NCBI GenBank assembly: GCA_002839355.1
Contig: PGXW01000024.1
Coordinates: 1-40,742, forward strand
DNA from: Spirochaetae bacterium HGW-Spirochaetae-2
GTDB taxonomy: Bacteria > Spirochaetota > Spirochaetia > Sphaerochaetales > Sphaerochaetaceae
Reading direction: 5' to 3'
DNA length: 40,742 nucleotides
Below, piece after piece: positions 6,396 through 32,013 of this stretch; the stretch's first letter is position 1; each line of letters begins with the position of its first letter. Below the pieces are notes generated by a model. It had not been told where the DNA came from, did no database searches, and saw only the letters and a program-made list of their open reading frames with translations. Position numbers and translations under genes: made by a program.

Positions 6396-6405
6396 TTAAT
6401 TTCAA

Positions 6406-7299: not shown

Positions 7300-7364
7300 G
7301 TAAATTCTCCTTCGCACAACAAAAAGGACACACTTTAAATTGTTGCATTGCATTTATTGTAGGA

Positions 7365-7375: not shown

Positions 7376-7380
7376 CTGCT

Positions 7381-7410
7381 ATTATAATCAATCATACTCT
7401 TTCCTGTCAA
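7381..7410 (-). promoter_or_regulatory. Strong sigma-70-type promoter of the second lyase
   Basis: On the minus strand TTGACA (7410-7405) and TATAAT (7386-7381) are both perfect hexamers with an 18-base spacer. The expected start near 7374 lies in the operator palindrome and gives a leader of about 75 bases before the GTG at 7299. Confidence 0.65.
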
Positions 7411-7456
7411 GCATCATTCATATATCCCGATGGAATTGGGATAGTGGTGATAATTG

Positions 7457-7702: not shown

Positions 7703-7716
7703 GTTGAATATTAGAA

Positions 7717-9497: not shown

Positions 9498-9556
9498 GCA
9501 CTCCTCCCCCTATTCGACAATGTTGAACACTTTTCTGCTTCTGCAACTTCCTACAA

Positions 9557-10822: not shown

Positions 10823-10823
10823 A

Positions 10824-11342
10824 TCAGCTATCCCTCTCTTGCATTTCCGTACTGTCGTACAACACAACAATATCTTGCATAATATTGAAAGCTGTACGAA
10901 TGGACATCAATATGAAACTGATTGGAACAACGCCATACAACGCTCCATTCGTAAACGGCAAAGTGAGCGGCCTTTGCATTCTTGCGAATGGCATATTTTT
11001 AAATCCGTAGTACACCAGAATGACGCATGCGGCCAGCATGATTGTATCGACAAGCAAAATCACGATTCTTTGAATAAGAATTGGAGTCTTGACGATGAAC
11101 AAATCGATTCCAATGTGCTCCCTATGATAAATGCCCTGGCTGGCTCCAAAAAAAACTATGTAAACAAATAACCAACGGGAAAGTTCCTCAGTCCAAATTG
11201 GCGAATACGAGATAGTTGACGAAATGAATTTTATCCTGAAGAATATCTGCATCAATACTGTAAAAAAAAGTAGAATAAAGCATATTCCTTCGATAAATTC
11301 CTCTAGTCGCAATGTTTTCTCATACCATTTTCGGTAGACCAC
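10824..11342 (-). CDS. TRAP transporter small permease, DctQ family
   Basis: Small TRAP subunit of about 172 aa with four membrane segments and the W-T-E-E-L-S-R-W motif typical of DctQ. The GTG at 11342 was chosen because a clean GGAGG lies 5 bases before it. The upstream ATGs at 11363 and 11354 have no ribosome site, and the second one overlaps the GGAGG. One base separates it from the large permease gene. The 97-base gap to the binding-protein gene contains a strong hairpin (11390-11423). Confidence 0.83.
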   Translation of the reverse strand: MVYRKWYEKTLRLEEFIEGICFILLFFTVLMQIFFRIKFISSTISYSPIWTEELSRWLFVYIVFFGASQGIYHREHIGIDLFIVKTPILIQRIVILLVDTIMLAACVILVYYGFKNMPFARMQRPLTLPFTNGALYGVVPISFILMSIRTAFNIMQDIVVLYDSTEMQERDS

Positions 11343-11389
11343 AGAAACCTCCATATTCAACATAACTGTTTTAATCTTAAAAATGAAAT

Positions 11390-11423
11390 CGACTCCTCCC
11401 GAAATCTCTCCCGGGAAGAGTCG
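11390..11423 (-). promoter_or_regulatory. Intercistronic hairpin between dctP and dctQ (second TRAP operon)
   Basis: A 12-bp stem with a single C/T wobble pairs 11390-11401 with 11412-11423 around a 10-nt loop. On the transcript it is followed after a few bases by a short T-run (TTTTT). It may be a partial terminator, or a 3'-end stabiliser that lets the binding protein be made in excess over the permeases. It corresponds in position to the 1983-2015 hairpin of the first TRAP operon. Confidence 0.6.
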
Positions 11424-11439
11424 GATTCTATCAAATCTT

Positions 11440-12432
11440 CTACAATCGAGCCAATTGATCTACCAATCCCGGTACTCCAAGTTCCTTCTCAATCTTCACG
11501 TAATATGGAGCCATAGCCTTCCGCATCGGTCCCACATCCGGATACGTAATCGTCAAACCTTCGGATTTAAAGAATGCAATAATTTGATCGGTGCTTTCGG
11601 TGACCAATTTGATGCTTTCATCCTTCGCAGCCTTGCCGGCTGTTCTCAACCATCCTTGCTGTTCGGCGGTAAGACCTTCCCAACGTTTCTGCGAGAAGAT
11701 AATCGACTTGTCTTGGATGACGTGGTTGTCGATGGCGACAGCTGCCTGAGCTTCATAGAATTTCATTGATTCGATTGTCGGAAGAGGGTTCTCTTGAGCA
11801 TCAACACTGTTCGTCTTCAATGCCAAATACACTTCATTGAAAGCTATTGTTGTCGGACGACCACCCATTGCTTCTGCCCAATCTTTCAATCCGCGGGAAT
11901 TGGGCGTTCTGATACGGAGTCCCTTGTAGTCGTCGATCGAGTAGAGCGGTTTGTTCGAAGAGGTTTGCCGGGTACCGAATAACGTCTGATCTAGTATCAT
12001 CAAGTTGTAATCGCTAGCCAACTTTTCTTGTATTTTTTTCCCCCAATCACTTCCCAGTATCCGGGCTATATGATCAAGGTCTTTTACAACATATGCCATT
12101 TCCAGTATCGCTAGCTCTGGAACCATCGTGCTTATTCCTCCGATAGGTTCCATATAGGCGTCCAATTCATTCATGGCAATCTGTTGCAACATTGCTTTTG
12201 CATCTCCCAATTGTCCATTGGGGTAAATTGTCGCAGTAACCATTCCTCCCGAGACACTCCCAAGGGTTTCGGCGAATTTCTGTGCAACCTTGTATTCGAC
12301 GCTCATTGTATTTCCATCCACTCCGAACTTCAATACAACCGGTTTGTCAGCAGAAACTTGTTCTTGTTGCCCCGCTGCGAAAAGACTCGCAGAAACCAAT
12401 AGCAACAAAGCGATAACCAGTAATTTCTTCAT
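11440..12432 (-). CDS. TRAP substrate-binding protein, SiaP/DctP-like
   Basis: Extracytoplasmic binding protein of 330 aa. The signal peptide (residues 1-20) ends in FAAGQQE, a style common in spirochaetes, and has no lipobox Cys. The mature domain has IYPNGQLGD, the clamp segment GLRIRTPNS with the carboxylate-binding Arg, and NEVYLALKTNSVDAQENP. The C-terminal ITYPDVGPMRKAMAPYY resembles SiaP of Haemophilus over the same region. AAGGAGGA precedes the ATG. Together with the nanA-like gene across the divergent promoter region, sialic acid or a related keto sugar acid is the best guess. First gene of its operon. Confidence 0.85.
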   Translation of the reverse strand: MKKLLVIALLLLVSASLFAAGQQEQVSADKPVVLKFGVDGNTMSVEYKVAQKFAETLGSVSGGMVTATIYPNGQLGDAKAMLQQIAMNELDAYMEPIGGISTMVPELAILEMAYVVKDLDHIARILGSDWGKKIQEKLASDYNLMILDQTLFGTRQTSSNKPLYSIDDYKGLRIRTPNSRGLKDWAEAMGGRPTTIAFNEVYLALKTNSVDAQENPLPTIESMKFYEAQAAVAIDNHVIQDKSIIFSQKRWEGLTAEQQGWLRTAGKAAKDESIKLVTESTDQIIAFFKSEGLTITYPDVGPMRKAMAPYYVKIEKELGVPGLVDQLARL

Positions 12433-12504
12433 AAATCATTCCTCCTTGGATTGCAAGTTCCATATTCTTGCCAACCATAGTAATCTTCCCACCCTTTTTC
12501 TGAT

Positions 12505-12530
12505 ATGTCAACTGTTATTTCAGTTGATAT
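12505..12530. promoter_or_regulatory. Inverted repeat, candidate operator for the divergent TRAP and gntR-nanA operons
   Basis: TCAACTG (12508-12514) and CAGTTGA (12521-12527) form a perfect 7-bp inverted repeat with a 6-base spacer, extended by a wobble and two AT pairs. It lies between the two divergent transcription units and just upstream of the -35 of the rightward promoter. The GntR regulator encoded next to it is the natural candidate to bind it. Confidence 0.5.
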
Positions 12531-12535
12531 TTCAC

Positions 12536-12564
12536 TTGAATTTATGCAATGGTAGTTCTATACT
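12536..12564 (+). promoter_or_regulatory. Sigma-70-type promoter of the gntR-nanA operon
   Basis: TTGAAT (12536-12541) and TATACT (12559-12564) are separated by 17 bases. The start would fall near 12571, about 13 bases before the ATG of the regulator, with AAGGGAA as ribosome site in between. Confidence 0.55.
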
Positions 12565-12583
12565 GTTTGAAAGGGAATTGATA

Positions 12584-13243
12584 ATGGAAAAACAAATGGA
12601 TAATAGGACTGATCGCCCAATCTTGGGGGATTCATTGGTTCATGGGGTGTATCACACCGTTCTCGAACGATTGTTGGGCAATGCGATAGCACCGGGTACA
12701 ATTATTAACCGGAAAGCCCTTGCCGAGGAGTTGGGTGTAAGCATGGCGCCTGTGCATGAAGCTTTGGCCAGACTGACCATCGAAGGTTTTTTAGACACCT
12801 ACCCACGTAAGGGAACGATTGTAAAAGCAATTAATCGCGATGATTTGTATGGTAGCATCATACTTAGGGAAGCCATAGAATGTCAGGCGGCTCGAATGTA
12901 CCATGGAAAAACCCTTCAAGATAATAGAGAACACTTATATGATTGGGCTGCACGTGTCGATGCTCCAATTGAAGATTTGGTTGAGCATTGGAAAGTAGAT
13001 ATTGAATTTCATGCTGAATTGGTCAGGTTGTCGGGATGCAAGACACTTAGCCAAACTTTCAAGCAGGTTATGCGTGTAGGGACATTTTATCAAATCAATA
13101 CATTTTTAATGCAACATGATCGGCAAGAGCGGCTTAGCCATAGCCAGTTGATCGACGATCTTTGTACCGATGATCCGAGTCTTGCTGAAAGCGTCATTCG
13201 GGAACATCTGAAGAGCGGCAAACGGAATTTCTATAAAGGATAG
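12584..13243 (+). CDS. GntR-family regulator, FCD subfamily (likely controls nanA and the SiaPQM-like TRAP)
   Basis: Regulator of 219 aa with an N-terminal winged helix (about residues 15-80; INRKALAEELGVSMAPVHEALARL, wing PRKGTIV) and a C-terminal FCD domain. Its ligand positions are seen in DIEFHAELV and IREHLKSGKRN. The ATG at 12584 has AAGGGAA at suitable spacing and lies just behind a promoter. An in-frame extension to 12290 would run back across the divergent operon and is not credible. The nanA-like gene starts 8 bases after its stop, so the two are cotranscribed. Role by context: sensing the substrate or product of the lyase. It is functionally analogous to NanR but assigned only by position. 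Confidence 0.85.
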   Translation: MEKQMDNRTDRPILGDSLVHGVYHTVLERLLGNAIAPGTIINRKALAEELGVSMAPVHEALARLTIEGFLDTYPRKGTIVKAINRDDLYGSIILREAIECQAARMYHGKTLQDNREHLYDWAARVDAPIEDLVEHWKVDIEFHAELVRLSGCKTLSQTFKQVMRVGTFYQINTFLMQHDRQERLSHSQLIDDLCTDDPSLAESVIREHLKSGKRNFYKG

Positions 13244-13250
13244 GTAATAT

Positions 13251-14141
13251 ATGAAGCAATTGAAAGGTATTTTCCCAGCATTACTCACCCCGTTTGCTGA
13301 AAACCAAATTAACGAATCGGCATTGAGAAGTTTGGTAGAATGGAACATTGCCCAAGGAGTATCGGGATTTTATGTCTGTGGAAGTACAGGTGAAGCCTTC
13401 CTGCTTACCCACGACGAAAGAAAACAGGTGCTGGAAATTGTAGCTGATCAAGTCAATGGACGTATTCGGATAATCGCTCACATTGGAGCTATATCAACCG
13501 ATCTTTCCCTTGATTTGGGGCATCATGCATCATCGCTTCCCGGAGTTGATGCCGTATCCTCGATCCCTCCATTCTACTATCATTTTTCCCAAGAAGAAGT
13601 GATCAAATATTATCTGGATCTAGCGAATGAACTTGCTTTCCCAGTTATTCCGTATAATTTCCCAAGATTATCCGGTGTCACGTTGTCTCCCGATATCGTG
13701 AAAGAATTACGCATGAACAAACACATCATTGGAGTCAAATTCACATCGGATAACTTCTATGATCTTGAAAGGATGAAAAATAGCGATCCCGACCTGCTGG
13801 TCTATAATGGGTTTGACGAAATGTTCCTTGCCGGATTATCCATGAGGGCAGATGGAGCTATAGGTAGTACATTCAATTTTATGGCTGACAAGTATATCGC
13901 AATTCACGAAGCGTTCAAAACCGGAAACATTGGAGAAGCCCAGGCAATCCAATCGCAAGCGAACGATGTATTGCAAGCCTTACTGCAAACAAAGTGCTTC
14001 ATGGCTGCAGAAAAATATGTGATTGATCTTATCGGTATACCTTTCGGAGAGCCAAGGCGGCCATTCATTCCTCTGACAGCAGATGAGAAGACTATGTTGA
14101 AAACTAAAGTTCAACCTATGCTCAAACTCGTCTTGAAGTAG
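13251..14141 (+). CDS. nanA: N-acetylneuraminate lyase (NanA-like)
   Basis: Schiff-base aldolase of 296 aa, predicted to cleave N-acetylneuraminate to N-acetylmannosamine and pyruvate. Several stretches follow the NanA pattern closely: GIFPALLTPF, YVCGSTGEAF (GSTGE at 44-48), PFYYHFSQEE, PYNFPRLSGV, YNGFDEMFLAGL and DGAIGSTFNFM. Catalytic Tyr135 and Lys163 match Tyr137 and Lys165 of the E. coli enzyme. Translation probably starts at 13251 with a GGATAGG site overlapping the end of the regulator gene. No nanE, nanK, nagA or nagB was found in the window, so the rest of a sialic acid pathway would have to be elsewhere. A related keto-acid sugar remains possible. Confidence 0.82.
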   Translation: MKQLKGIFPALLTPFAENQINESALRSLVEWNIAQGVSGFYVCGSTGEAFLLTHDERKQVLEIVADQVNGRIRIIAHIGAISTDLSLDLGHHASSLPGVDAVSSIPPFYYHFSQEEVIKYYLDLANELAFPVIPYNFPRLSGVTLSPDIVKELRMNKHIIGVKFTSDNFYDLERMKNSDPDLLVYNGFDEMFLAGLSMRADGAIGSTFNFMADKYIAIHEAFKTGNIGEAQAIQSQANDVLQALLQTKCFMAAEKYVIDLIGIPFGEPRRPFIPLTADEKTMLKTKVQPMLKLVLK

Positions 14142-14331
14142 AATTATGTAGTAGTCGGGATAATTCACAGCAGGTGCTGAAATAATTGAGAGCCGATGCA
14201 TGACCCGCACACATATGGTTATACAGAGGCACTCTCCCAACAATCCCTGCAAAGATGAAATATTCTATTCCAAAAATATTCACGCTTGTTGAATTATTTC
14301 CAACAAACCTACAATTCTCGACAGGAAGGTA

Positions 14332-15024
14332 CTAGATATCACCCACACTATCATTATGGCTGTTTCCTATACGCACACCCATTCCCTGGAGTTTCCGATA
14401 CAGCGTCGACAAACTCATTCCTAAATCTTTTGCAATCTTTCGTTTACTTTCGGTTGAATATCCGTACTTGTCGAGATATTCGAGTAGCATATCACGTTTA
14501 AAAACATCCAGAGTCGATTTGAACGAGTCTTGCGAATCAAGGGACTCTCGTATCATATCATGCGACTCTTCCACGATATATTTAGGCAAATGTTCGTATT
14601 TGAGCACGTCACCATTACAGAAGTTAACAGCATACTCGATGACATTTTCCATTTCCCTGATATTTCCGGGCCATTCATACCGTTTGAACAAATCCAAGAC
14701 TGGATAATCAAAGAATATTTTCTGTTTATTCATTCGATATCTCAACGCCTTTAAGATATGCTCGGCCAAAATGATAACGTCATCTCCCCTTTCCTTCAAA
14801 TTGGGAAGATTGATCGGAATGACATTGAGCCTATAATACAGATCTTTCCTGAACAGATTTTTCTCTACCATAGACTTTAGGTTCTTGTTCGATGCTGCAA
14901 TTATCCGTACATCAAGAGCAATAACATCATTGCAATCATCACAATAGATCTGGGAACGAAATACCATTTTATATGCAAACCTTAAAATGCGTATTAAGAA
15001 CGTTACAAGGTACGTTCGAAGCAT
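14332..15024 (-). pseudogene. 5'-truncated sigma-54-dependent activator (AAA+ remnant plus Fis-type HTH)
   Basis: Only the C-terminal part of a sigma-54 enhancer-binding protein is present. Recognisable homology starts near 14919 with NDVIALDVRIIAASN (sensor I). It continues with LFRKDLYYRLNVIPI, LPNLKERGDDV and the WPGNIREMENVIEYAV sensor II segment, then a Fis-like helix-turn-helix near the C-terminus (KRKIAKDLGMSLSTLYRKL). The Walker A, GAFTGA and Walker B motifs and any sensory domain are missing, so the product could not hydrolyse ATP or remodel sigma-54 holoenzyme. The first 35 or so codons look like chance sequence. The frame begins one base after the stop of the kinase gene at 15025, exactly where base composition jumps. 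It converges with nanA; the 190 bases between them hold no gene. Confidence 0.8.
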
Positions 15025-16509
15025 TCAAGTGAGTGCTTTTCTTACTGCGTTTTTCCAGCCGCCATACAAGGTTTCACGCCATTGATCTTGTCTCGTTGGC
15101 TGGAAGCACTCGCCTTCGATGCGCATGGTTGCGATGTCTTCGATGTTCCACAGGTGCAAGGCCAAGCCACACAGGTACATGGCTCCCGCGGCGGAAAGTT
15201 CCTCGATCTCGTTCTTCATCACCGGAACGTTGAGGATGTCGGATTGGAACTGCATCAGAAATTGATCGCGCGTGGGCCCGCCATCGACACGCAACTCTTG
15301 CAGTGGGATGCCCGACTCGGCTTCCATGGCATACACGACATCTGCGATCTGGTAGGCGATCGATTCCTCGGCGGCCCGGACGATATGGGCTTTCTTCACT
15401 CCCCTGGACATGTTTGAGATGCACGCACGTGCCGTACTGTCCCAGTGGGGAGCACCCAGGCCGACAAAAGCCGGAACGAGGTACACACCCAAGGTGTCGG
15501 GGACGGTTGCGGCGAGGATTCCCGCTTCCCGGGAGGAGGAGATCAGTTCGAGATCATCGACCAACCACTTGATGGTGGCACCGGTACAGTTGATGTTGCC
15601 TTCCAATACATAGGTGATTGTACCGTCGATCGCATACCCTATCGATGAGACAACCGAGTACACACCCTCTATAGGAGAGGAACCGACATGCATCATCACC
15701 GAAGAACCGGTGCCATAGGTGGCTTTCGCCATGCCCTTGCTGGTACAGCATTGTGCGAAGAAGGCGGCATGCGAATCGCCAAGCACTCCGGCGATCGGGA
15801 TATCCACACCGAACAGGGAGGGGTCGACCGATCCGAACAGGGCATTGGAATCGAGTACCTCGGGCATCATGGAACGATCGAGTCCGAACAATTCGAGCAG
15901 TTCATCGTCCCATTGCAGGGTATGGATATTGAACAGTTGCGTCCTGCTTGCGTTGGTGTAGTCGGTGGCATGCACACGACCTGCACTTAGCTTCCATACC
16001 AGATAGGTATCTATGGTACCGAACAACAATCGCCGGTGTGCGAGCAGTTGCTTGGCAACGGGTACATGCTGCAGTATCCACGCGGCTTTCGCCGCCGAGA
16101 AATAGGGAGAGAGACGCAAGCCGGTCTTACGTCGAACCATCTCCGCCGAGCCCTGGGCGGCAAGTGCTGCGGTCAATTCCTCGGCCCGCTGGCACTGCCA
16201 CACAATAGCATTCATCACAGGGGTGCCTGTTAGCTTGTCCCAGAGAACCACCGTCTCGCGCTGGTTGGAAATCGATAGGCCAAGCAGATCGTTGGGCGCT
16301 ATGCGAGCTTGTTCCATGACTTTGAGGGTTGCCGACAACAGACCGGTGAATATCTCCTCGGGGTCGTGTTCGACCCATCCGGACTGCGGATAGTGTTGTG
16401 TCAACGGAATGTCGGCGCGGTCAACCAATGTGCCTTCTTTGTTGAAGAGAACCGCTTTGGTCGCCGATGTACCCTGGTCCACTGCCAACAGATAGTTCGA
16501 TCCATGCAT
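15025..16509 (-). CDS. FGGY carbohydrate kinase, glycerol-kinase-like
   Basis: ATP-dependent kinase of 494 aa in the glycerol kinase branch of the FGGY family. The N-terminal phosphate loop DQGTSATKAVLF (11-22), SISNQRET, NAIVWQCQR, the YGTGSSVMM segment and VPAFVGLGAPHWD are all present. The C-terminal signature RVDGGPTRDQFLMQFQSDIL is also there. The size and motifs match GlpK. However, no glycerol facilitator or glycerol-3-phosphate dehydrogenase is nearby, and the gene ends a polyol/ketose operon, so it may phosphorylate another triose or tetritol, or salvage glycerol, dihydroxyacetone or a similar fragment from the transketolase step. GAGGGGAG lies 8 bases before the ATG. Its stop codon coincides with the compositional junction of the window. 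Confidence 0.82.
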   Translation of the reverse strand: MHGSNYLLAVDQGTSATKAVLFNKEGTLVDRADIPLTQHYPQSGWVEHDPEEIFTGLLSATLKVMEQARIAPNDLLGLSISNQRETVVLWDKLTGTPVMNAIVWQCQRAEELTAALAAQGSAEMVRRKTGLRLSPYFSAAKAAWILQHVPVAKQLLAHRRLLFGTIDTYLVWKLSAGRVHATDYTNASRTQLFNIHTLQWDDELLELFGLDRSMMPEVLDSNALFGSVDPSLFGVDIPIAGVLGDSHAAFFAQCCTSKGMAKATYGTGSSVMMHVGSSPIEGVYSVVSSIGYAIDGTITYVLEGNINCTGATIKWLVDDLELISSSREAGILAATVPDTLGVYLVPAFVGLGAPHWDSTARACISNMSRGVKKAHIVRAAEESIAYQIADVVYAMEAESGIPLQELRVDGGPTRDQFLMQFQSDILNVPVMKNEIEELSAAGAMYLCGLALHLWNIEDIATMRIEGECFQPTRQDQWRETLYGGWKNAVRKALT

Positions 16510-16533: not shown

Positions 16534-17481
16534 CTAGGAATGACGTTTTCGCAAGAGTTTCATCATGCGCTGTGCGACCGAGGGACCGGTCATGCCATAA
16601 TGGTGCAACACATCGTAGGCCGACCCCTCGACAGGGATCTCATCCGCAATACCCACTATGTCCAGGGGAACAGGATAGTCCTGCCCTGTAATCTCGGCAA
16701 CAGCAGCTCCAAGGCCCCCGAAGATACTGTGTTCCTCCAAAGTCAGGATAACACCGGTCTCCTTTGCTGCCAGTAGGATCGCCTCCCGGTCGATAGGCTT
16801 GATCGTATGCATATCGAGCACCCGGACCTGAATCCCTTGCCCGGCAAGCAGCATAGCGGCGTCCACAGCGTGGGCAACCATTTCACCGGTAGTGATTATG
16901 GTACCGTCGGAACCCGGACGCACCATATTCGCTTTTCCGAACCGGAAGCTTTCGTCGGCAGTGGTGTAGATATCGGGGACTGCAGAGCGCCCCATCCGTA
17001 CATAGGCAGGTACGTCATGCTCGGCCAGCCACCTGGTAACCGCTTCGGTCTGGAACCGGTCACTTGGAGCAATAACAACCATGTTCGGAAAGGTACGCAT
17101 GACGGCGAAGTCATGGAGTGATTGGTGTGAGAAACCCAACGCTCCATAGCTGACACCACCGCTGATACCGATCACCCGCACAGGATTGCCTGAATATATG
17201 ACATCGACTTTCACCTGTTCCAGACTTCGGGTCGAGAGAAAACAAGCCGGGGCACAGACGAAGACCTTTTTGCCAAACGTAGCCATTCCCGCCGCTATAC
17301 CGACTTCGTTCTGTTCTGCAATACCGACTTCGACGAATTGATTCGGCAAAAGTTGTGCGAACTCGTCGAGGGTCACCGATCCACGCGCGTCGGAGGTAAC
17401 GACAAAAATACTGGGATCCTTCTGAGCCAGTACCGTCAATGTTCGGGTGAATGCTTTCCTGTTTGGAATGGTGTTACTCAT
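16534..17481 (-). CDS. Split transketolase, C-terminal subunit
   Basis: Pyrimidine-binding and C-terminal half of a two-subunit transketolase, 315 aa. It has the VTSDARGS start, VEVGIAEQNEVGIAAGMA (with the conserved Glu that activates thiamine diphosphate), then GALGFSHQSLHDFAVMRTFPNM and the C-terminal domain LDMHTIKPIDREAI. It overlaps the N-terminal subunit by 8 bases, and AAGGAGG lies 9 bases before the ATG. Split transketolases of this length are used in several specialised sugar pathways, for example apulose-4-phosphate transketolase and sulfo-sugar transketolases, and in pentose phosphate metabolism of some anaerobes. The donor substrate here is undetermined. Confidence 0.87.
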   Translation of the reverse strand: MSNTIPNRKAFTRTLTVLAQKDPSIFVVTSDARGSVTLDEFAQLLPNQFVEVGIAEQNEVGIAAGMATFGKKVFVCAPACFLSTRSLEQVKVDVIYSGNPVRVIGISGGVSYGALGFSHQSLHDFAVMRTFPNMVVIAPSDRFQTEAVTRWLAEHDVPAYVRMGRSAVPDIYTTADESFRFGKANMVRPGSDGTIITTGEMVAHAVDAAMLLAGQGIQVRVLDMHTIKPIDREAILLAAKETGVILTLEEHSIFGGLGAAVAEITGQDYPVPLDIVGIADEIPVEGSAYDVLHHYGMTGPSVAQRMMKLLRKRHS

Positions 17482-18316
17482 GAATCGTTACCTCCTTGAT
17501 CAATATATCCATTTCTTGCATAGCCTGGAGATATTGTTCTTCGCTGGGAACTCCATGATGCCACTTCGCCATATCCTGCATATAAGAAACCCCTTTGCCT
17601 TTCACGGTTTGTGCAATAATCATCCGGGGTTTGTGCGGTTTCGGATCGAGTGCGAACGCATGAAGCAAGGCGGCCATGTCGTGGCCATCGACGATGAGGG
17701 TATCCCAGCCGAATGCGGACCACTTCTCTTCGAGGCTCTCCAATCGCATGACACGTTCGGTTTCTCCGCTGATCTGCAGCCTGTTGCGATCGATTATGGC
17801 GGTCAAATTATCCAGATCGAAGTTGGCCGCAGCCATTGCCGCTTCCCAAACCGAACCCTCTGCCTGTTCTCCATCGCCCATGAGGCAATAGACTCGAACA
17901 TCCGAATGGTCCCTTTTCGCTGCCAATGCCATACCGACAGAGCAGGACAACCCGTGCCCAAGCGCTCCGGTATTCAATTCGACACCCGGCACTTTCACCG
18001 AGGGGTGTCCGATCAAACGCGAGCCGTAGGAGGAGAAGGACGCAAGTTCTTCTTTCGGAAAGAACCCCCTGTCGGCCAAAATGGTGTAGAGACCTTCGAC
18101 ACTGTGACCTTTACTGAGGACAAACCGGTCGCGGTCCGGCTCTTTGGGATGCTTCGGATCGATGCGCAACACATGGTAGTAGAGGACGGTCAAAATATCG
18201 ACACTCGACAACGAGCCGCCGGTATGGCCGGTTTTCGCATGATGGATCATACCAAGCAGTTCTTTACGCACCAGAGCCGATTTCAGGCGCAGGAATGCCA
18301 CGGTATCCCTGTTCAT
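17474..18316 (-). CDS. Split transketolase, N-terminal (thiamine diphosphate-binding) subunit
   Basis: Partner of the preceding subunit, 280 aa. It contains SKGHSVEGLYTIL, LNTGALGHGLSCSVGMALA and the thiamine diphosphate/metal motif GDGEQAEGSVWEAAMAAANFDLDN with the downstream Asn. HTGGSLSSVDILTVLYYHVL near residue 31 is the usual N-terminal helix pair. The ATG overlaps the stop of the upstream DUF4432-SIS gene as ATGA, so the two genes are translationally coupled. The operon position between a sugar-phosphate isomerase-like fusion and a kinase suggests transfer of a two-carbon unit from a ketose phosphate produced by this pathway. Confidence 0.87.
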   Translation of the reverse strand: MNRDTVAFLRLKSALVRKELLGMIHHAKTGHTGGSLSSVDILTVLYYHVLRIDPKHPKEPDRDRFVLSKGHSVEGLYTILADRGFFPKEELASFSSYGSRLIGHPSVKVPGVELNTGALGHGLSCSVGMALAAKRDHSDVRVYCLMGDGEQAEGSVWEAAMAAANFDLDNLTAIIDRNRLQISGETERVMRLESLEEKWSAFGWDTLIVDGHDMAALLHAFALDPKPHKPRMIIAQTVKGKGVSYMQDMAKWHHGVPSEEQYLQAMQEMDILIKEVTIHE

Positions 18317-20097
18317 CTTGTCTCTCCCTGCAGCAAGCGCTCTCCGACTGCCCCACTGGGGTGGATGATCGCAAACTGTTCCTTTGTGAATCCGGTCAGT
18401 CGCATGACAGCGATCGCAAGGGCATCGAACAGTGCGATGACGGCCAAGGTACTGGTGGTCGCGAGCATGTTGAACTCGTCAGCCTCCTTCTCGATGGCGA
18501 CGTGCAACAACAGGTCGCAGGATCGACCCAATACCGATTCGGGATGCTCGGTGATGCCGACAATCGTTGTATGCTTAGTTTGCAACGAGGGGATGAGTTG
18601 GACAATCTCCCTGGTACCGCCTCCCTTTGAGATGAGAAATACGATATCACCATCTTGCACCGAACCCAACGCCCCATGGACGGCATCAGCCGGATTCAGG
18701 AATATCGTGGGAATCTCCACACAAGAGAGGCTGTGGGCCAATTTCCGGGCCGCTACACCCGATGTTCCGACACCACATACCGCCACACGTCCATTATGAT
18801 GTGCAAGCAAGCGGACACATGATGCGAAGGCCTTGCGGTCCATATGCGAATCGAGACGTTGTATCTCATGAACGGCAGTCTTCCACACATGGGATGCGAT
18901 AGCCGAGATCTCGGTATCACCAAATTCCGGGTTTTGAGCGACAAGGATTTCGTCCTTGACGGCCTTCACGCGGGTGGGATGCAGTGGGGTTATGGCAATG
19001 GTCAAACGCCGGGAGGCTCCCGGTGCGAGGACTGCTTGGACGACCTGGGAATCGGCACCGTCGCCATGGTCAAGGTCGCTTGCGCCGATTTCAGGCCCTA
19101 CCCCATCCCATGACTTGGGGATGAGCGCCGTGCCGGGGTTTTGCGGCCACAGGAATTCCTTACCGTTGGCACCCCCGCAGGAGTTCCACACCATCGTATA
19201 GGGAGCATGGGGAAAGATGATACCGATACCCGACCCATCGGGATACTCCAACAGCCCTTGGACGAGACCATCGGTCGCATCGAGGTGCGAATGGATATAC
19301 CCGCGCTCCTCGCGGACGGCCACATTCCAGGGCAAACGCCACACCATGTGGTCTTTCGGAACCACACTTCCGAAGCGCTCGCGCACCGTGCGCGAGGGAA
19401 GATGGAAACGGCACCCCGGTCGTGGCCGCAACTGCACATGGTAGCCCCAATCGGGGAAGGCCCCCGCTTCGGAAACATTGGTGATGGTATCGTCGACAAC
19501 CAAGGTTCCGGTGGCGGCATGCAACAATATGCGTTTCTCCACCTTCCACTTCGGCTGCTGCGTCCCTTTCGGCAAAACTGCGATATCATGGTGCACCATA
19601 ACGATTGCACAGATTTCCAGCGTATCATCGGTCTGGAGCCCCACAACCACATCGGTCGCGGGAATATTGGAGACATTTCCGTGCAACGGATGCAGGCGAT
19701 TGTCGGCATCACGATAGTGCATGCCCCAGTTGTCCAGACCAAGCATCTCCACGCCACCGAAGAATTGGGCAATCCAGGAGGTTCCGGGAGTCTCCTTGCC
19801 GTTGACGAGCAAAGCGTTGGACAAGTCGATTGTATCGGGAGATTGGATGCTGTCCAGCGGGGGATCCCAGAACAGGGGAATACCGTCGACCGAACAGGAG
19901 AGAACCGAGAGTCCCTTGGTGGGCAGCAACTCCAGGACAAACTGCTTCCAGCGGATGCGCAGACGTCGCACGGAGGCATGGTCATAGCCATGATGGTACA
20001 ATTCGACTTGTCCGCCACCGATAGTGTGGTGAAAAGCTTCGGACGGATAGTTGTTCCAGTCGGGAATTCGGATACGTGCGGTGTCGCAGCTCTCCAT
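18313..20097 (-). CDS. Fusion protein: DUF4432 aldose-epimerase-like domain plus KdsD-like SIS sugar-phosphate isomerase domain
   Basis: A 594-aa protein made of two parts. Residues about 10-385 look like the DUF4432 group of aldose 1-epimerase-like beta-sandwich proteins (GLSVLSCSVDG, FFGGVEMLGLDNWG, HGNVSNIPA, FPDWGYHVQL). Residues about 395-594 are a SIS domain close to arabinose-5-phosphate isomerases of the KdsD/GutQ type: VCGVGTSGVAARKLAHSL, the aspartate/alanine stretch NPADAVHGALG, LISKGGGTREIV, VEKEADEFNMLATTSTLA and the terminal FAIIHPSGAVGERLL. CBS domains found in KdsD are absent. The plausible job is coupling ring-opening or epimerisation of a sugar to aldose-ketose isomerisation. 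AGGAG lies 8 bases before the ATG; the gene overlaps the transketolase gene by 4 bases. Confidence 0.8.
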   Translation of the reverse strand: MESCDTARIRIPDWNNYPSEAFHHTIGGGQVELYHHGYDHASVRRLRIRWKQFVLELLPTKGLSVLSCSVDGIPLFWDPPLDSIQSPDTIDLSNALLVNGKETPGTSWIAQFFGGVEMLGLDNWGMHYRDADNRLHPLHGNVSNIPATDVVVGLQTDDTLEICAIVMVHHDIAVLPKGTQQPKWKVEKRILLHAATGTLVVDDTITNVSEAGAFPDWGYHVQLRPRPGCRFHLPSRTVRERFGSVVPKDHMVWRLPWNVAVREERGYIHSHLDATDGLVQGLLEYPDGSGIGIIFPHAPYTMVWNSCGGANGKEFLWPQNPGTALIPKSWDGVGPEIGASDLDHGDGADSQVVQAVLAPGASRRLTIAITPLHPTRVKAVKDEILVAQNPEFGDTEISAIASHVWKTAVHEIQRLDSHMDRKAFASCVRLLAHHNGRVAVCGVGTSGVAARKLAHSLSCVEIPTIFLNPADAVHGALGSVQDGDIVFLISKGGGTREIVQLIPSLQTKHTTIVGITEHPESVLGRSCDLLLHVAIEKEADEFNMLATTSTLAVIALFDALAIAVMRLTGFTKEQFAIIHPSGAVGERLLQGETR

Positions 20098-20124: not shown

Positions 20125-21000
20125 CTAGATCTTGTTGATCGCTATGGTCTCGTTGGAAATCTTGAGCGTATCGGCATAGGCGCTTCCCGCATGCAACAGG
20201 AAATTGATGTAGAGACTTTCGATGATGCACAGTGCGGTGATACGCTTGGACATGATCTCGCCGGTGATATTCTTGGAGAACACCGCCGTCTGCAGGATAA
20301 TGTCGCTCTTCTTGCTCAACGGGCTGACGGGGAAATTTGTGATGAGGATCACTGTAGCACCCCGGTCCTTGGCGACTTTGACAACATCGTGGATCTGACG
20401 GCTCCGTCCGGAATGGCTGATCGCGACAACCACGTCGTTCGGTTGCAGTTGTGTCGCGTAGATCAGTTGGGTGTCGGGGTCGGTCGCGTGCAGCGACGAT
20501 ACACCGATACGCAGGAACCGCAAATGGGCTTCCATGGCAACCGCCCCGGCATCACCCAAACCACAAAACAGGATCCGTTTTGCCGCCACCAGGCGCGTCA
20601 AAGCCCGGGTATAATCATCGGGATCGAGCATGTTGAGCGTGTCGATGAGTCCTTGGGCCGATGATTCGAAGACCTTGCGCATGACATCCAACGGTTGGTC
20701 GTTGTCCAGGATGTTGCCGTACTCATGGATTTCCGACGAGTTCCCGAAGGCGGCGAAATCGCGCTTCAATTCGGGAAACCCTTCGTATCCGAGCTTTTTG
20801 GAGAGACGGACGACGGTCGCTTCGCTGCACCCCGCCTCCGATGCGAATTCCTGGATACTGAGCCTGTCCACACCCGTGGCATGCTCGAGCAGGAAATCGG
20901 CGGCTTTCTTCTCGGCTTTCTTCAATGTATTGTAGACCGCTTGCATCTGGAGCGCACATGCATGCGGCATATGTTCGATTTGTAGTTCCATACTGGTCAT
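20125..21000 (-). CDS. RpiR-family transcriptional regulator (HTH plus SIS domain)
   Basis: About 291 aa. The N-terminal RpiR helix-turn-helix (residues 20-95) contains LSIQEFASEAGCSEATVVRLSKKLGYEGFPELKRDFA. The C-terminal SIS domain (about 125-270), with LFCGLGDAGAVAMEAHLRFLRIG and AISHSGRSRQIHDVV, binds a phosphosugar effector. The ATG at 21000 overlaps the stop of the upstream kinase (ATGA). A second ATG at 20991 is better spaced from GGAGGAGGT and is an alternative start. The much longer frame to 21255 is the reverse side of the kinase. Being inside the operon, it probably controls that operon, sensing a ketose or aldose phosphate from the pathway. Confidence 0.87.
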   Translation of the reverse strand: MTSMELQIEHMPHACALQMQAVYNTLKKAEKKAADFLLEHATGVDRLSIQEFASEAGCSEATVVRLSKKLGYEGFPELKRDFAAFGNSSEIHEYGNILDNDQPLDVMRKVFESSAQGLIDTLNMLDPDDYTRALTRLVAAKRILFCGLGDAGAVAMEAHLRFLRIGVSSLHATDPDTQLIYATQLQPNDVVVAISHSGRSRQIHDVVKVAKDRGATVILITNFPVSPLSKKSDIILQTAVFSKNITGEIMSKRITALCIIESLYINFLLHAGSAYADTLKISNETIAINKI

Positions 21001-22499
21001 ACCTCCTCCCTGAGTCGTTTGAGCGCCGGATATATCCCCCGATACTCTTCGAGCAAACCTGTGTATTTCGAAGCCATGTTCGCATCGGGTTGATACTCTT
21101 TCTTGAACCCGACCATGCGGTCGGCTCCCTCGCGTACGCTCGACCACAATCCTATCGCACTTCCTGCCAATATGGCTGCACCCAGGGCGGCCGATTCGGG
21201 ACAAACCGGTACCCGTACCGGTCGATTGAGGATATTCGCCTTGATCTGCAGCCAATCGGCGGATTTGGAACCACCGCCGACAGCCGATATGGACCGGATA
21301 TCGATTCCCGATGCGCCGAAAGCCTCGAGATTGAGGGCAAGCTCATACGTTTGCGATTCGAGCAGCGCCCGGTACAAATCGGGGATTCCGGTCGACAATG
21401 TCAACCCGACGATCGCTCCGGTGGCGTCCATGTCGCACCACGGGGTTCCGCTTCCGTTGAAGTGGGGAACGATAAAGAGTTTCTGGGGATTCGGCGACAT
21501 GCTCTGGTCGAGATAGTGGTATATGTCCATACCCCGCCGCTGGGCTTCCTCGATCTCCTTGTGGCAGAAAGTCTCCTTGAACCAGCGCAACAGGATACCC
21601 CCGATGTGGTTCAGGCTGAAGGTGAAGTAGGCTCCCGGCAACACATGGCGGTAGCAGGGAAAGAAGCTTTCGTACATGCCGTCGTTGGTGGTCGCCCGCT
21701 CGAGACAGGTGGAGAAGACCTCAGCGGTGCCGGTGGATACAACCGCTTGGCCTGGCGATAGCACTCCTGCCCCCAGGGCTGCGCAACATTGGTCGTGACC
21801 GCCGGTTGAGATCATGGTCGTCCCACTTAGGCCGGCTTCCCTGGCAATGTCGGACGAGAGGTGCCCGATAACGGTCCCCGATGGACGGATCTGGCCAAGC
21901 CGATCCCGGGTGATGCCTCCAAATGCGAGCAATTCGTCGTCCCATTCGGTGCTTTCGAGAGTGCAAGCCATGGTTCGGCTGGCCATGGAGGTGTCGATGA
22001 CCCGCTCCCCGCCCAGTTTCATGGCTATGAAGTCGGCATAGGTGGCAAACGCCGCCGCCGTCTCGAATACCTGCGGATTCAATTCCTTGTAATACAGAAT
22101 CTTGGTAATGCTGTTCAGGGCGTGGGGCCGCATGCCGGTGCGCTCGAAGAGTTGCCGGTCGCCGAAGGTGTTCGCGAACGCTCTGGCCGCATTGGCGGAG
22201 CGGTAGTCCATGCCCAACAGGGCGGGACCCAGCGCATTTCCTGCCCGGTCGACAGGAATTACGGCATCACCTTGTACCGATACGCCGATTGCCTCCACGG
22301 TCTTGAGTCCGCAGGAGGCGATGGCACGGACCAGTACCGTACGTGCACTTCGCCAGACTCCCTCGGCATCCTGTTCGGCCATGCCTCCGGGACCGCTGAT
22401 CACGGCATATTCTTCGAAAGCTGTCGAGAGAACGGTTCCGCAATCGTCGAAGACGACCGCCTTGGCTCCCGTCGTACCAATATCCAGTCCAACAAGCAT
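20997..22499 (-). CDS. FGGY carbohydrate kinase, xylulokinase-like (module A)
   Basis: ATP-dependent sugar or polyol kinase of 500 aa. It has the phosphate loop LDIGTTGAKAVVFD (4-17), GVSVQGDAVIPVD, the STGGHDQCCAALGAG stretch that contains the catalytic Asp, the adenosine motif VSTGTAEVF, and the C-terminal VGGGSKSADWLQIKANILNRPV. Most similar in layout to xylulose and related kinases, but family members also phosphorylate erythritol, apulose and L-ribulose, so the substrate is open. It sits 12 bases after the DRL-type gene and overlaps the RpiR gene, forming the kinase-DRL-MDR trio that recurs at 28.1-32.0 kb. Confidence 0.85.
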   Translation of the reverse strand: MLVGLDIGTTGAKAVVFDDCGTVLSTAFEEYAVISGPGGMAEQDAEGVWRSARTVLVRAIASCGLKTVEAIGVSVQGDAVIPVDRAGNALGPALLGMDYRSANAARAFANTFGDRQLFERTGMRPHALNSITKILYYKELNPQVFETAAAFATYADFIAMKLGGERVIDTSMASRTMACTLESTEWDDELLAFGGITRDRLGQIRPSGTVIGHLSSDIAREAGLSGTTMISTGGHDQCCAALGAGVLSPGQAVVSTGTAEVFSTCLERATTNDGMYESFFPCYRHVLPGAYFTFSLNHIGGILLRWFKETFCHKEIEEAQRRGMDIYHYLDQSMSPNPQKLFIVPHFNGSGTPWCDMDATGAIVGLTLSTGIPDLYRALLESQTYELALNLEAFGASGIDIRSISAVGGGSKSADWLQIKANILNRPVRVPVCPESAALGAAILAGSAIGLWSSVREGADRMVGFKKEYQPDANMASKYTGLLEEYRGIYPALKRLREEV

Positions 22500-22511: not shown

Positions 22512-23798
22512 CTATCCCAGCCGAACGTCTTGGATGTTCCGCAAGTACACGTGCATCCCCTCCGGTACGGCTTCGATCATATCATAGGTTATCGGGGTAT
22601 CCCGAGAAATATCCTTGCTCACCACACACCCCTTGGCCAATCCGAGGGGCAGCAGCTTCTCCGCTTTGGCCACGCTGTACTGTTCGATGCTGCCGCGGTA
22701 GCAATAGCCGCCGATTCCGTCCAATTGTTCGCCCGCCTGCAAGTCGCGCTTGGCGATAGTGATGCACTCGCTGGTCAGCCGGGCCTTGGGGTGGCCGGTG
22801 CTCTCACCATACAGCACACATTGCGCCACGGTAAGGGGAACCTCTATGGAGCAGAGGTGGTACGGCCGGTAGAGGGTGTAATACGGTCCCTCCCCCATAT
22901 CCCGTTGCACCATGCCGTCCTGGATCCGCTTGTTGTCGGTAGTCACGACCAAAAACACTCCCGGGTGTACGCCGATGGCAAAATCGACGATTCCCTTGCG
23001 GTCCAATATCCCGCCATCCTCCTTGGGGATGAACACATGCTTTAGCTCGTCCACGGTCGCATGGGCGGCATGCATGCCACGGATATCGCACACCAGGCCT
23101 GTCGCGTTGCTTACCGCCGCCATCTCCACCGCGGTTTTCGAGCCGTCTACAAACTCGCAGAGCATCGCCGGATTCATCTTCCGCTGCAAGGCCTTCTCCC
23201 GTTCGGTGTCGGGATTCGAGTAGATATTCAACGGGTTGTTCTTTCCTTTCCCCGCCGTGACCACTTCGAAGCCCAGGGCTGTGGCGAACCGGTATAACTC
23301 GATGATCGCGGCAGGCTCGTCACCGGCGGCCAGACTGTAGACCACACCGGCATCTTCTGCGAACTGTCGGAGAATAGGACCGATCGTGACATCGCACTCC
23401 ACGTTCATCATGACCACATGCTTCTTGTAGTGGAATGCGTCCATGGCGATCGTGGCGCCCATTTCGGTCGAACCGGTCGCATCGACGACCGCATCGACAA
23501 ACCGGCTGCGGGTCGCCAGACGGTAATCGCTTGTCGCTATCGATTTGCCAGCCATATGTGCCTCGTCGGCTTCCTTGAGTGTGGTACAGACTTGCACAAC
23601 GTTGGTATGCTTGCTGTGTCCGTAGCCGGCCACCGCCTTGTCGGAAGTGATATCGACAACCACACTCACCTGCATTCCGCGCATCTCACCGATTTGGGTG
23701 ATGATTTCGGTGCCCATCTGGCCCGCGCCTATCACAGCGACCCTGATCGGATTTCCCGCCTGTTCCCGTTCCACGAGTTTCTGGTCATATTCATGCAT
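22512..23798 (-). CDS. DRL-family oxidoreductase (homoserine-dehydrogenase-like Rossmann plus SAF domain), module A
   Basis: A 428-aa protein with an N-terminal NAD(P)-binding domain (VAVIGAGQMGTEI, GxGxxG at 24-29). A central catalytic region follows, including [57 protein letters not shown] and YYTLYRPYHLC. The C-terminal SAF domain (about 335-428) includes LDGIGGYCYRG and LPLGLAKGCVVSKDI. This is the architecture of DRL, the Brucella DXP-reductoisomerase-like enzyme. DRL rearranges and reduces 1-deoxy-xylulose 5-phosphate to 2-C-methylerythritol 4-phosphate. Members in catabolic operons are uncharacterised to my knowledge. AGAGG precedes the ATG. It lies between the MDR and the kinase genes, so it likely acts on a phosphorylated polyol or ketose. 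Confidence 0.8.
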   Translation of the reverse strand: MHEYDQKLVEREQAGNPIRVAVIGAGQMGTEIITQIGEMRGMQVSVVVDITSDKAVAGYGHSKHTNVVQVCTTLKEADEAHMAGKSIATSDYRLATRSRFVDAVVDATGSTEMGATIAMDAFHYKKHVVMMNVECDVTIGPILRQFAEDAGVVYSLAAGDEPAAIIELYRFATALGFEVVTAGKGKNNPLNIYSNPDTEREKALQRKMNPAMLCEFVDGSKTAVEMAAVSNATGLVCDIRGMHAAHATVDELKHVFIPKEDGGILDRKGIVDFAIGVHPGVFLVVTTDNKRIQDGMVQRDMGEGPYYTLYRPYHLCSIEVPLTVAQCVLYGESTGHPKARLTSECITIAKRDLQAGEQLDGIGGYCYRGSIEQYSVAKAEKLLPLGLAKGCVVSKDISRDTPITYDMIEAVPEGMHVYLRNIQDVRLG

Positions 23799-23828: not shown

Positions 23829-24860
23829 CTACGGTTTTACGAGCACCTTCAAGGCTTCCCTATTCTTGGCGGCGACGAATCCCTCCACGATATCCTCTAG
23901 TCCCACGGTTTTAGTGAAATAGGCCTCCGGATGGATAGTGCTCTTCCGTATCGCCTCCAGGGCTGCCAGATGATGGCGCTTCTGGTAGGAGAAAGTCCCT
24001 ATGATTTCGATTTCATTGTAGTGGATCATGTTACTGTCCAGGCTTGTCATGGGATTGTTCTTGGGAACGCCACCGAAGAGGACCACCTTGCCACGCTTGC
24101 GTACCGCTTCGATGGCAATCTGCTGGCTCTGCACCGAAGCGTTGGCGCAGATGGCGAAATCGACTCCCCGTCCTTCTGTTCGTGCACGCACCGCCGCGAC
24201 GACATCGTCCTTCTCATAGTCGAGCATGAGGTCGGGGCCGAACTGTTGGGCTGCTGCCAATCGGGAACGGCCCGAAATGAATATCTGCGATGCCCCATTG
24301 GCCCGAGCGACTTCGATATGGAGGCACCCGATCGGTCCATCCCCGAGAATCAGGACTGACGACCCCGCACCGATTCCCACACGTTCTTGGGCAGCGATCA
24401 CCGAAGATGCCGGCTCGGAAAGGCACCCCTCGGTAAGACCGACGCCTTCGGGCAGGTGGTGGACAAATCCGTGTGCAAGGATTTCTGCATCCAGGTGGAC
24501 AAATTCGGCGAACCCTCCGGGCCAATTCGTCCCCACCATGCGGTGGTTTTCACACAGATTGATCAATCCCTGCCGGCAATACCAACAGGTGCCGCAACTC
24601 ACATCGGGGGCGAGCGCAATGCGGTCCCCGACGTTGAAGCCAGTCACCTCGGTTCCCATTTCGACAACGGTTCCGGTGAATTCATGTCCCATCACTTGGC
24701 TGGCAATGCCATAGCGTAGACCCGTGGAAAAATTGCGGATATCACCCCCGCAAATGCCACAGGCATGGACTGCAAGTATCAGGTCTCCGGGCCCGCATGG
24801 TTGCAAGGGAATATCCTTGACCTGCATCTCTCCCGGTCGTTCAAAAACTGCGGCTCTCAT
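23829..24860 (-). CDS. Zinc-dependent MDR polyol dehydrogenase (module A)
   Basis: Medium-chain dehydrogenase of 343 aa in the sorbitol/threonine dehydrogenase group. Catalytic zinc ligands are Cys37 (CGICGGD) and the GHE pair His59-Glu60. The structural zinc lobe has four Cys at 89, 92, 95 and 103. The NAD-binding fold carries LILGDGPIGCLHIEVA. It is expected to interconvert a secondary alcohol and a ketone on a sugar alcohol. The AAGGAGAGG ribosome site is strong. First gene of the 24860-15025 operon; its leader contains the CCACGG/CCGTGG inverted repeat. About 38 % of positions appear shared on casual reading with the MDR at 28099-29148, but no alignment was run. Confidence 0.86.
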   Translation of the reverse strand: MRAAVFERPGEMQVKDIPLQPCGPGDLILAVHACGICGGDIRNFSTGLRYGIASQVMGHEFTGTVVEMGTEVTGFNVGDRIALAPDVSCGTCWYCRQGLINLCENHRMVGTNWPGGFAEFVHLDAEILAHGFVHHLPEGVGLTEGCLSEPASSVIAAQERVGIGAGSSVLILGDGPIGCLHIEVARANGASQIFISGRSRLAAAQQFGPDLMLDYEKDDVVAAVRARTEGRGVDFAICANASVQSQQIAIEAVRKRGKVVLFGGVPKNNPMTSLDSNMIHYNEIEIIGTFSYQKRHHLAALEAIRKSTIHPEAYFTKTVGLEDIVEGFVAAKNREALKVLVKP

Positions 24861-25110: not shown

Positions 25111-26532
25111 ATGAAAGACGGAAAATTGTGCTTTGCCGTGATAGTCGGCACCCGAGGCTTTTTCAATACCGACCTGGCGGTACATGGCAAACGTGATATG
25201 CTCACGGTACTCGATTCCCTGGGTTTCGCGACGATCATCATGCCCGATACTGCGACACCGACGGGCTGTGTGGAGTCAACCGAGGATGGAATAGCGTGTG
25301 CGAACCACTTCAAGAAGCATGCCGATGAGATAGATGGAATTATCGTGACACTTCCCAATTTCGGCCTTGAGCTCGGTATCGTCGCGGCGATCCATGAATC
25401 CAAGCTCAACGTTCCCGTGCTCCTGCACGCCGAAGACGACGATCTGGACAAGATCGATGTCGCCCACAGGCGCGATGCCTTCTGCGGCAAGCTCTCGGTG
25501 GCCAACAACTTCATCCAATACGGCATTCCGTTCACGAACACCACGTTGCATACCTGCAAGGTGAATTCGAAGGTTTTCAAGGACGATGTCGTGCGCTTCT
25601 CGGGAGTCTGCAGGGTGGTCAACGGGTTGCGCAAGGCCCGGATCGGGGCGATAGGCGCTCGACCCGCCGATTTCCAGACCATGCGGGTGAGCGAGAAATT
25701 GTTGCAACGCTCCGGGGTGACCGTCGTTTCGGTCGACCATAGCGAAATCATCTTCGATGCCCTCCGGCTTGCCGACGACGACAAGCGGGTGGTCGACAAA
25801 CTCAAGGAGATCCGTGCCTACGGAACGATCCCCGCCTCTATCCCGGATAAGAATATCCTGAAGCAGGCCAAGTACACGGTGGTCGTGGAGAAGTGGATCG
25901 CCGACAACCGCATCAGTGCCGCCGGAATCCAATGCTGGACGTCCATCCAGAAGAACTACGGTTGCGCAACGTGCCTGACCATGAGCATGTTGGGAGAGGT
26001 CAAGGTTCCGTGTGCCTGCGAGGTCGATGTCGCCGGAGCTATCAGCATGCTGGCACTCACCTTGGCATCGGACAATGCCTCGGCACTGCTCGACTGGAAC
26101 AACAACTACGGCGAGGACCGCAACAAGTGTGTCAACACACACTGCTCCAACTATCCCAAGAGCTTCTTCGGTACGGACGATATCGAGATATCGGAACTGG
26201 ATGTGTTGGGAACGACGTTGGGCAAGGACAACTGTTTCGGAGCGGTCAAGGGAAAGGTCAGGAAAGGTCCCATGACCTACCTGCGCGTCTCCACCGACGA
26301 CTTCACCGGCAAGATCAAAGCCTATGTGGGCGAAGGTGATTTCACCGACGATCCGTGTGCCATGGCTGGTGGTGTCGCAGTCTGTGCGATCGACAACCTG
26401 CAAGAGCTCATGAACCATATCGTACGCAACGGGTATGAACACCATGTCGGTATGGTGCGCACCCATGTGGCCCAAATTCTCCAAGAAGCCTTGCAGAATT
26501 ACCTGGGATGGGAAATCTACCTGCACAACTAG
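25111..26532 (+). CDS. L-fucose/L-arabinose isomerase-like protein
   Basis: A 473-aa protein of the FucI/AraA-like isomerase superfamily, which interconverts aldoses and ketoses with a divalent metal. An N-terminal Rossmann-like part (GTRGFFNTDLAVHG, DGIIVTLPNFG) is followed by a middle domain and a C-terminal domain. CEVDVAGAISML supplies the acidic metal ligand region and NTHCSNYPKSFF a candidate metal His. It is shorter than classical FucI (about 590 aa), as in uncharacterised FucI-like proteins. AAGGAGG lies 7 bases before the ATG. It is the only rightward gene in the right block and shares the operator-rich promoter region with the MDR operon, so it probably works in the same pathway, for example on a pentose or branched pentose. 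Confidence 0.82.
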   Translation: MKDGKLCFAVIVGTRGFFNTDLAVHGKRDMLTVLDSLGFATIIMPDTATPTGCVESTEDGIACANHFKKHADEIDGIIVTLPNFGLELGIVAAIHESKLNVPVLLHAEDDDLDKIDVAHRRDAFCGKLSVANNFIQYGIPFTNTTLHTCKVNSKVFKDDVVRFSGVCRVVNGLRKARIGAIGARPADFQTMRVSEKLLQRSGVTVVSVDHSEIIFDALRLADDDKRVVDKLKEIRAYGTIPASIPDKNILKQAKYTVVVEKWIADNRISAAGIQCWTSIQKNYGCATCLTMSMLGEVKVPCACEVDVAGAISMLALTLASDNASALLDWNNNYGEDRNKCVNTHCSNYPKSFFGTDDIEISELDVLGTTLGKDNCFGAVKGKVRKGPMTYLRVSTDDFTGKIKAYVGEGDFTDDPCAMAGGVAVCAIDNLQELMNHIVRNGYEHHVGMVRTHVAQILQEALQNYLGWEIYLHN

Positions 26533-31999: not shown

Positions 32000-32013
32000 G
32001 CGGAGCCTCCTGT

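Follow-up and report, generated by a model that had tools for sequence, protein, structure and literature searches.

A single gene encoding DUF4432 and SIS domains

Does one uninterrupted gene of the spirochaete Spirochaetae bacterium HGW-Spirochaetae-2 join a DUF4432 domain to a SIS domain in a single protein chain, and what might such a protein do? The gene lies in a window of 40,742 nucleotides (contig PGXW01000024.1), the whole stretch of DNA analyzed here. The original prediction was of a continuous 594-aa frame with domains at both ends and no internal start with a strong ribosome site, and all of this was borne out. The minus-strand frame of 594 codons runs from an ATG at 20097 to a stop at 18313, the plus strand being interrupted by stops in this region, and Pfam searches detected DUF4432 (PF14486) at aa 42-250 (E 2.4e-18, 66.4 bits against a gathering cut-off of 32.5) and SIS at aa 434-563 (E 4.9e-18, 65.6 bits against a cut-off of 25). 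The proteins of two related genomes, G002 and G054, also score above the PF14486 cut-off. A strong ribosome site, GAGAGAGGAG, is present 7 bases before the ATG. Of the six internal starts that lie in frame around the linker (aa 365, 377, 404, 419, 430 and 438), none has a comparable one, and a reading as two genes with an internal start was rejected. The next gene encodes the N-terminal half of a split transketolase, and its start overlaps the stop of the fused gene by 4 bases. The parts of the fused gene are as follows.

18313-20097, minus strand: fused gene, DUF4432 half, linker and SIS half, 594 aa (open reading frame and Pfam; kept in G002, G054 and G022)
18982-20097, minus strand: DUF4432 half, aa 1-372, predicted mutarotase fold with conserved H139, H220 and E336 (Pfam, structure match to 3ty1, invariant residues)
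18928-18981, minus strand: variable linker, aa 373-390 (dN close to or at saturation, both halves constrained)
18316-18927, minus strand: SIS half, aa 391-594 (start approximately 391), KpsF-like, lacking CBS domains, GxGTSG type (Pfam, match to 3fxa, active-site residues)

Recurrence and origin of the fusion

The same one-chain fusion was found, uninterrupted in each case, in G002 (65% identity), G054 (62%) and G022 (60%; contig JAQQAI010000075.1, 'Sphaerochaetaceae bacterium'). Carriers thus number 4 of the 61 genomes of the family in that search, the window's own included; the four are assigned to one family, whose name is taken from the G022 contig. Pairwise comparison of the four fused proteins gave dN values of 0.36-0.42 for the DUF4432 half and 0.17-0.21 for the SIS half, against a dS that was saturated or nearly so, and both halves are under purifying selection. 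The 18-aa linker is almost unconstrained. Recurrence in three more genomes, that of G054 within a contig of 3,554,903 bases (a single-contig genome), together with dN far below dS in both halves, rules out a chance frame, a frameshift or an assembly error joining two genes, and a true single-chain fusion is indicated, as first proposed. The SIS halves of the four proteins form one clade (support 92/90; 1 label change compared with 3.8 in shuffles), from which a single origin of the fusion in Sphaerochaetaceae is likely.

The expectation that DUF4432 and SIS are normally separate was also upheld, since the other DUF4432 frames of 296 Spirochaetota genomes were standalone and a PF14486 scan of these genomes yielded no further DUF4432 and SIS chain. 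No further fusion was detected in 395 genomes of the class scanned with a sub-family profile or in 299 genomes of the Dialister phylum, and none of 72,556 plasmid records had a match covering 80% of the fused protein. These genome sets are samples, and a collection of 84,980 species was probed with six exact peptide patterns only; the fusion may occur elsewhere, beyond the sampled genomes. Viral contigs scanned for a DNA pattern yielded 10 short matches. All remaining sub-family relatives found in Spirochaetota are separate genes. The architecture is therefore lineage-restricted within what was searched, being found in the few Sphaerochaetaceae carriers rather than as a common, named family, and no description of it was found, each half being of a known kind. 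The literature searched made no mention of PF14486 and of DUF4432 only in unrelated contexts, and no DUF4432 enzyme assay was found in it.

Other DUF4432 genes were noted during these searches. A 640-aa frame in genome G389 (L098, 8696-10615) has DUF4432 at its C-terminal end (aa 283-604) and no Pfam match in its first 280 aa; it was rejected as a SIS fusion, only DUF4432 being found by Pfam, and may represent a different kind of DUF4432 fusion or a frame called too long. A long DUF4432 frame of 677 aa is also present in G068 (contig C86). The genome carrying the window has an ordinary standalone DUF4432 gene (L044, G000:C55:8364-9284, 324 bits) and thus encodes a DUF4432 protein besides the fused one.

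Unfused relatives share a gene cluster

The closest standalone SIS relatives, in other spirochaetes, are 55-62% identical, approximately 205-235 aa long and start where the SIS half starts, and the closest standalone DUF4432 relatives, also in other spirochaetes, are 37-43% identical and approximately 374-448 aa long. G472 (contig QNBK01000005.1) has separate DUF4432 and SIS genes, 11.6 kb from each other within a single divergent cluster. Homologues of several proteins of the window are encoded there too: the histidine kinase, response regulator, ABC transporter, dehydrogenase, FGGY kinase, RpiR regulator and TIM-barrel protein. An orthologue of the SIS half (51-57% identity) was present in four of the five genomes with a full-length standalone DUF4432 gene of this sub-family (G098, G456, G470, G472 and G432), a co-occurrence that serves as support rather than as a test, these genomes not being independent. 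Among the non-fused relatives in the fusion search, standalone SIS orthologues that close were seen in three only (G047, G082 and G098), and in G047, G082 and G888 the SIS gene was present and no DUF4432 gene of the sub-family was found. Homologues of the split transketolase of the window are found close to the standalone DUF4432 gene of G470. The shared cluster of G472 and the co-occurrence in four of five genomes support a functional link between the two domains, and this link most likely predates the fusion.

The DUF4432 half has a predicted mutarotase-type fold

An AlphaFold2 model of the fused protein was built from 15 sequences (mean pLDDT 84, pTM 0.68), in which the packing of the two halves is not fixed and residues around 122-125 and 136-139 are of low confidence. 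The modeled DUF4432 half matched 3TY1, a putative aldose 1-epimerase of Klebsiella pneumoniae, over the whole domain (Z 35.1, rmsd 3.0, 343 residues, model residues 5-391, 20% identity; profile E 1.4e-11), although 3TY1 is a standalone protein whereas the fused protein is one chain with SIS. Mutarotases came next among the structure matches, including YeaD (Z 22.8, 275 residues) and 2cir, the hexose-6-phosphate mutarotase of yeast (Z 20.8, 267 residues), and the model is that of a whole mutarotase-type fold. Nine sub-family proteins all have H139, H220 and E336, which hhalign places at the conserved HG, YH and GLE positions of ordinary DUF4432 proteins (E 2.6e-12). Profile comparison of the sub-family with GalM (aldose epimerase) gave no alignment in either direction, so the designation of E336 as the catalytic Glu is made from ordinary DUF4432 proteins only. 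E314 is likewise invariant and is an alternative candidate base; it belongs to an invariant EF motif (aa 314-315) located in a loop that is absent from ordinary DUF4432 proteins. Yeast Gal10 (1Z45), a mutarotase/UDP-galactose 4-epimerase, provides a precedent for a mutarotase joined to a sugar enzyme of the same pathway, but differs from the fused protein in its unrelated partner domain, domain order and pathway.

The SIS half belongs to a wider KpsF-like group

The SIS half had been described as KdsD-like, a designation that proved only partly apt. It is of the KpsF type and retains four KdsD active-site positions, His88, Glu111, Glu152 and His193, as H474, E497, E538 and H579, all invariant in the 10 closest spirochaete proteins. 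The KdsD numbering and residue roles are those of the E. coli enzyme, the count agreeing with the alignment to 2xhz to its end. However, scores fell below the NCBIfam cut-offs for TIGR00393 (151 against 203.7 bits), GutQ (139 against 481) and KdsD (136 against 505), no CBS pair follows the SIS domain, beyond which the fused protein ends, and the position of KdsD Lys59 is occupied by Thr445 (GVGTSG), such that activity on arabinose-5-phosphate cannot be assumed. Family profiles and alignment thus place the SIS half in a wider KpsF-like SIS group and not among KdsD, GutQ or KpsF proper; these three features count against the name KdsD, and not against a role as an aldose/ketose-phosphate isomerase.

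Structure matches of the SIS half were to Listeria 3FXA (lmof2365_0531; E 9.3e-60, Z 28.3, rmsd 2.1, 192 residues, 46% identity), the KdsD SIS domain 2xhz (Z 26.3, 173 residues) and E. coli CFT073 c3406 with arabinose-5-phosphate (5UQI; Z 25.3, 188 residues). Like the SIS half, c3406 has a SIS isomerase fold lacking CBS domains, but it is only 32% identical and has Lys where the fused protein has Thr445. 3FXA is likewise a CBS-less, KpsF-like protein of the GxGTSG type, and this motif, with Thr at the Lys59 position, is common to 3FXA, all close spirochaete relatives and the Rbl-like proteins of Pantoea and Duffyella. Members of this CBS-less group were found beside either FGGY kinase and ABC transporter genes or PTS, rpe and rpiB genes; 3FXA and its relatives are standalone beside galactitol-type PTS, rpe and rpiB genes, whereas the fused protein is encoded in an ABC/FGGY cluster.

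The fused gene lies in a putative sugar or polyol catabolic cluster

The genes surrounding the fused gene are listed below.

15025-16509, minus strand: GlpK-like FGGY kinase (domain and family profile matches)
16534-18316, minus strand: split transketolase, TktC (16534-17481) and TktN (17474-18316)
20125-20997, minus strand: RpiR-type regulator (HTH_6 and SIS), same operon, 84-87% identical in G054 and G002
20997-22499, minus strand: FGGY kinase 1, XylB-like, below cut-off
22512-23798, minus strand: DXR-II-like oxidoreductase 1 (PF21135; Brucella 3upl/3upy, E 1.5e-115)
23829-24860, minus strand: Zn alcohol/polyol dehydrogenase 1
25111-26532, plus strand: conserved L-fucose-isomerase-like protein (PF02952; 58% identical homologue in the unfused cluster of G456)
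26703-27587, minus strand: TIM-barrel epimerase/isomerase (in G472 and G456 its orthologue adjoins the standalone DUF4432 gene)
27584-28102, minus strand: glyoxalase-superfamily protein
28099-29148, minus strand: Zn alcohol/polyol dehydrogenase 2
29145-30443, minus strand: DXR-II-like oxidoreductase 2
30455-32017, minus strand: FGGY kinase 2
32014-36728, minus strand: ABC sugar transporter (permease, ATPase, protein at 34524-35612, binding protein)

Read 5' to 3' along the minus strand, the order is response regulator, histidine kinase, sugar-binding protein, transporter components and FGGY kinase 2, then DXR-II-like oxidoreductase 2, dehydrogenase 2, glyoxalase, TIM-barrel protein, the oppositely oriented fucose-isomerase-like gene and dehydrogenase 1, followed by DXR-II-like oxidoreductase 1, FGGY kinase 1, RpiR regulator, fused gene, transketolase N- and C-terminal halves and GlpK-like kinase. 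Permease-like proteins occupy the place of the 34524-35612 protein in three related loci (L025-L027). G054 retains this arrangement between FGGY kinase 2 and the fused gene, and its transketolase genes are not adjacent. At the positions diagnostic of DXR-II (121, 229 and 250, Brucella numbering), DXR-II-like oxidoreductase 1 carries Gly, Thr and His, with Thr in place of Val351, and an ordinary DXR-I for isoprenoids is encoded in the same genome as both DXR-II-like enzymes. The paired DXR-II-like genes possibly indicate a pathway for a branched polyol phosphate; literature searches on apiose and methylerythritol gave nothing usable.

The G+C content of the window steps near position 15020, from 43.1% (1-15020) to 56.0% (15021-40742). 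This coincides with the truncated start of a sigma-54 activator gene (14332-15024) and the end of the GlpK-like gene, and has the appearance of a junction left by recombination or assembly. Well inside the G+C-rich side, the fused gene matches G002 in this respect.

The cluster resembles the D-ribulose system of Citrobacter rodentium (RblABCD-RblK-RblI), in which an ABC transporter, an FGGY D-ribulokinase and a KpsF-like SIS protein are encoded in one operon and deletion of the isomerase causes no growth defect (PMC12307932). It differs in that the Rbl system has neither DUF4432 nor a fusion, and the window's two FGGY kinases score 123 and 109 bits against a TIGR01315 cut-off of 408.7, compared with 690 for the kinase neighboring the Pantoea SIS gene; membership of the Rbl kinase in TIGR01315 is deduced from the search used in that study (PMC12307932). 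The SIS relatives in Pantoea and Duffyella have an Rbl-like gene layout. In addition, the pneumococcal aga operon carries both SIS isomerase and aldose 1-epimerase genes (PMC5018945).

Proposed function of the fused protein and alternatives

We consider it an even chance that the fused protein is a bifunctional catabolic enzyme, combining anomer conversion by the DUF4432 half with aldose/ketose isomerisation of a 5-phosphosugar by the SIS half and feeding transketolase. The directly supported features are the fusion, its conservation, the shared cluster, the predicted folds and the retained residues, and from these we infer both enzyme activities, a hand-off between the halves and the substrate, which is best read as a pentose-like, perhaps branched, sugar or polyol. 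In such a scheme the ABC transporter would import the substrate and the dehydrogenases and FGGY kinases would oxidise and phosphorylate it; the DUF4432 half would interconvert ring anomers of the sugar or sugar phosphate, and the SIS half would isomerise a 5-phosphosugar of the arabinose-5-phosphate/ribulose-5-phosphate type, supplying pentose phosphates to the adjacent transketolase. Single fusion of two separate genes of one cluster would give equal dosage and perhaps a quick supply of the anomer. A bifunctional enzyme is favored because the fusion is conserved and its SIS halves form one clade, because G472 retains an unfused cluster, and because of the fold matches, the kept residues and the Rbl and aga parallels. 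Weighing against it are Thr445, the dispensable Rbl isomerase, the failure of the GalM profile to align and the SIS genes without DUF4432 in G047, G082 and G888.

The main alternative, somewhat unlikely in our judgment, is that the halves act on different molecules of one pathway, DUF4432 on the free sugar and SIS on a later phosphorylated intermediate, the fusion then serving dosage with no hand-off. This would suit the variable linker, a model in which pTM gives no firm domain interface, and the location of the standalone DUF4432 gene with TIM-barrel genes in G472 and G456, in the former on the opposite cluster arm from SIS; however, the keeping of one chain in four genomes favors a benefit of physical linkage, though dosage would suffice. 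The cluster might instead specify an undescribed branched sugar or polyol pathway in which the DXR-II-like enzymes convert the branched phosphate by rearrangement to a pentulose phosphate and the fusion determines which anomer, and which of the aldose and ketose forms, enters the following step; we regard this as rather unlikely. Improbable, to a slightly greater degree, is action of one or both halves on a branched or non-pentose sugar by chemistry other than mutarotation or aldose-ketose isomerisation, such as epimerisation, within a new pathway centered on the two DXR-II-like enzymes. Two such oxidoreductases, two FGGY kinases and two dehydrogenases do accompany the fusion, DXR-II interconverts branched and linear chains, and isoprenoid synthesis is already served by the DXR-I, but the DXR-II-like paralogues tested from outside the true DXR-II clade failed to complement a DXR mutant (PMC3847144).

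A suggestion in the original prediction, that the SIS domain is a phosphosugar sensor, here a non-enzymatic allosteric binder controlling the DUF4432 half or controlled by it, now appears quite improbable. Replacement of KdsD Lys59 by Thr, the sensor role of SIS domains in RpiR proteins and the dispensability of RblI (PMC12307932) are consistent with sensing, but all other active-site positions are invariant, a dedicated RpiR regulator is encoded next door, and the standalone SIS relatives are operon genes beside kinases and transporters. Least probable is synthesis of arabinose-5-phosphate for KDO by a KdsD-like SIS half. Besides this half no KpsF-like protein was found in the genome, where two KdsB-like genes score over the cut-off, but no KdsA was found there and the KDO role was rejected for that reason, the sole match, below cut-off, being a DAHP synthase-prephenate dehydratase fusion; moreover, the operon of the fused gene is catabolic, and the window showed no kds gene.

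Two loci encountered in this search can be described further. The KdsB-like genes flank a DHDPS-type aldolase gene near a ROK protein and a TRAP transporter (L137, 8772-11199; G000:C34, approximately 16.8-19.2 kb), possibly reflecting salvage of KDO or a related sugar acid in a genome lacking KdsA. The DAHP synthase-prephenate dehydratase fusion (L138, 1433-3352; G000:C79) is 639 aa long and has an ACT domain.

The fusion, together with the unfused pair in one cluster, constitutes 'Rosetta stone' evidence tying this DUF4432 sub-family to one pathway. It thereby offers a clue to DUF4432 function and points to substrates worth trying first for the sub-family. The conserved spirochaete cluster, with its paired DXR-II-like enzymes, FGGY kinases and dehydrogenases, represents a candidate sugar or polyol pathway.
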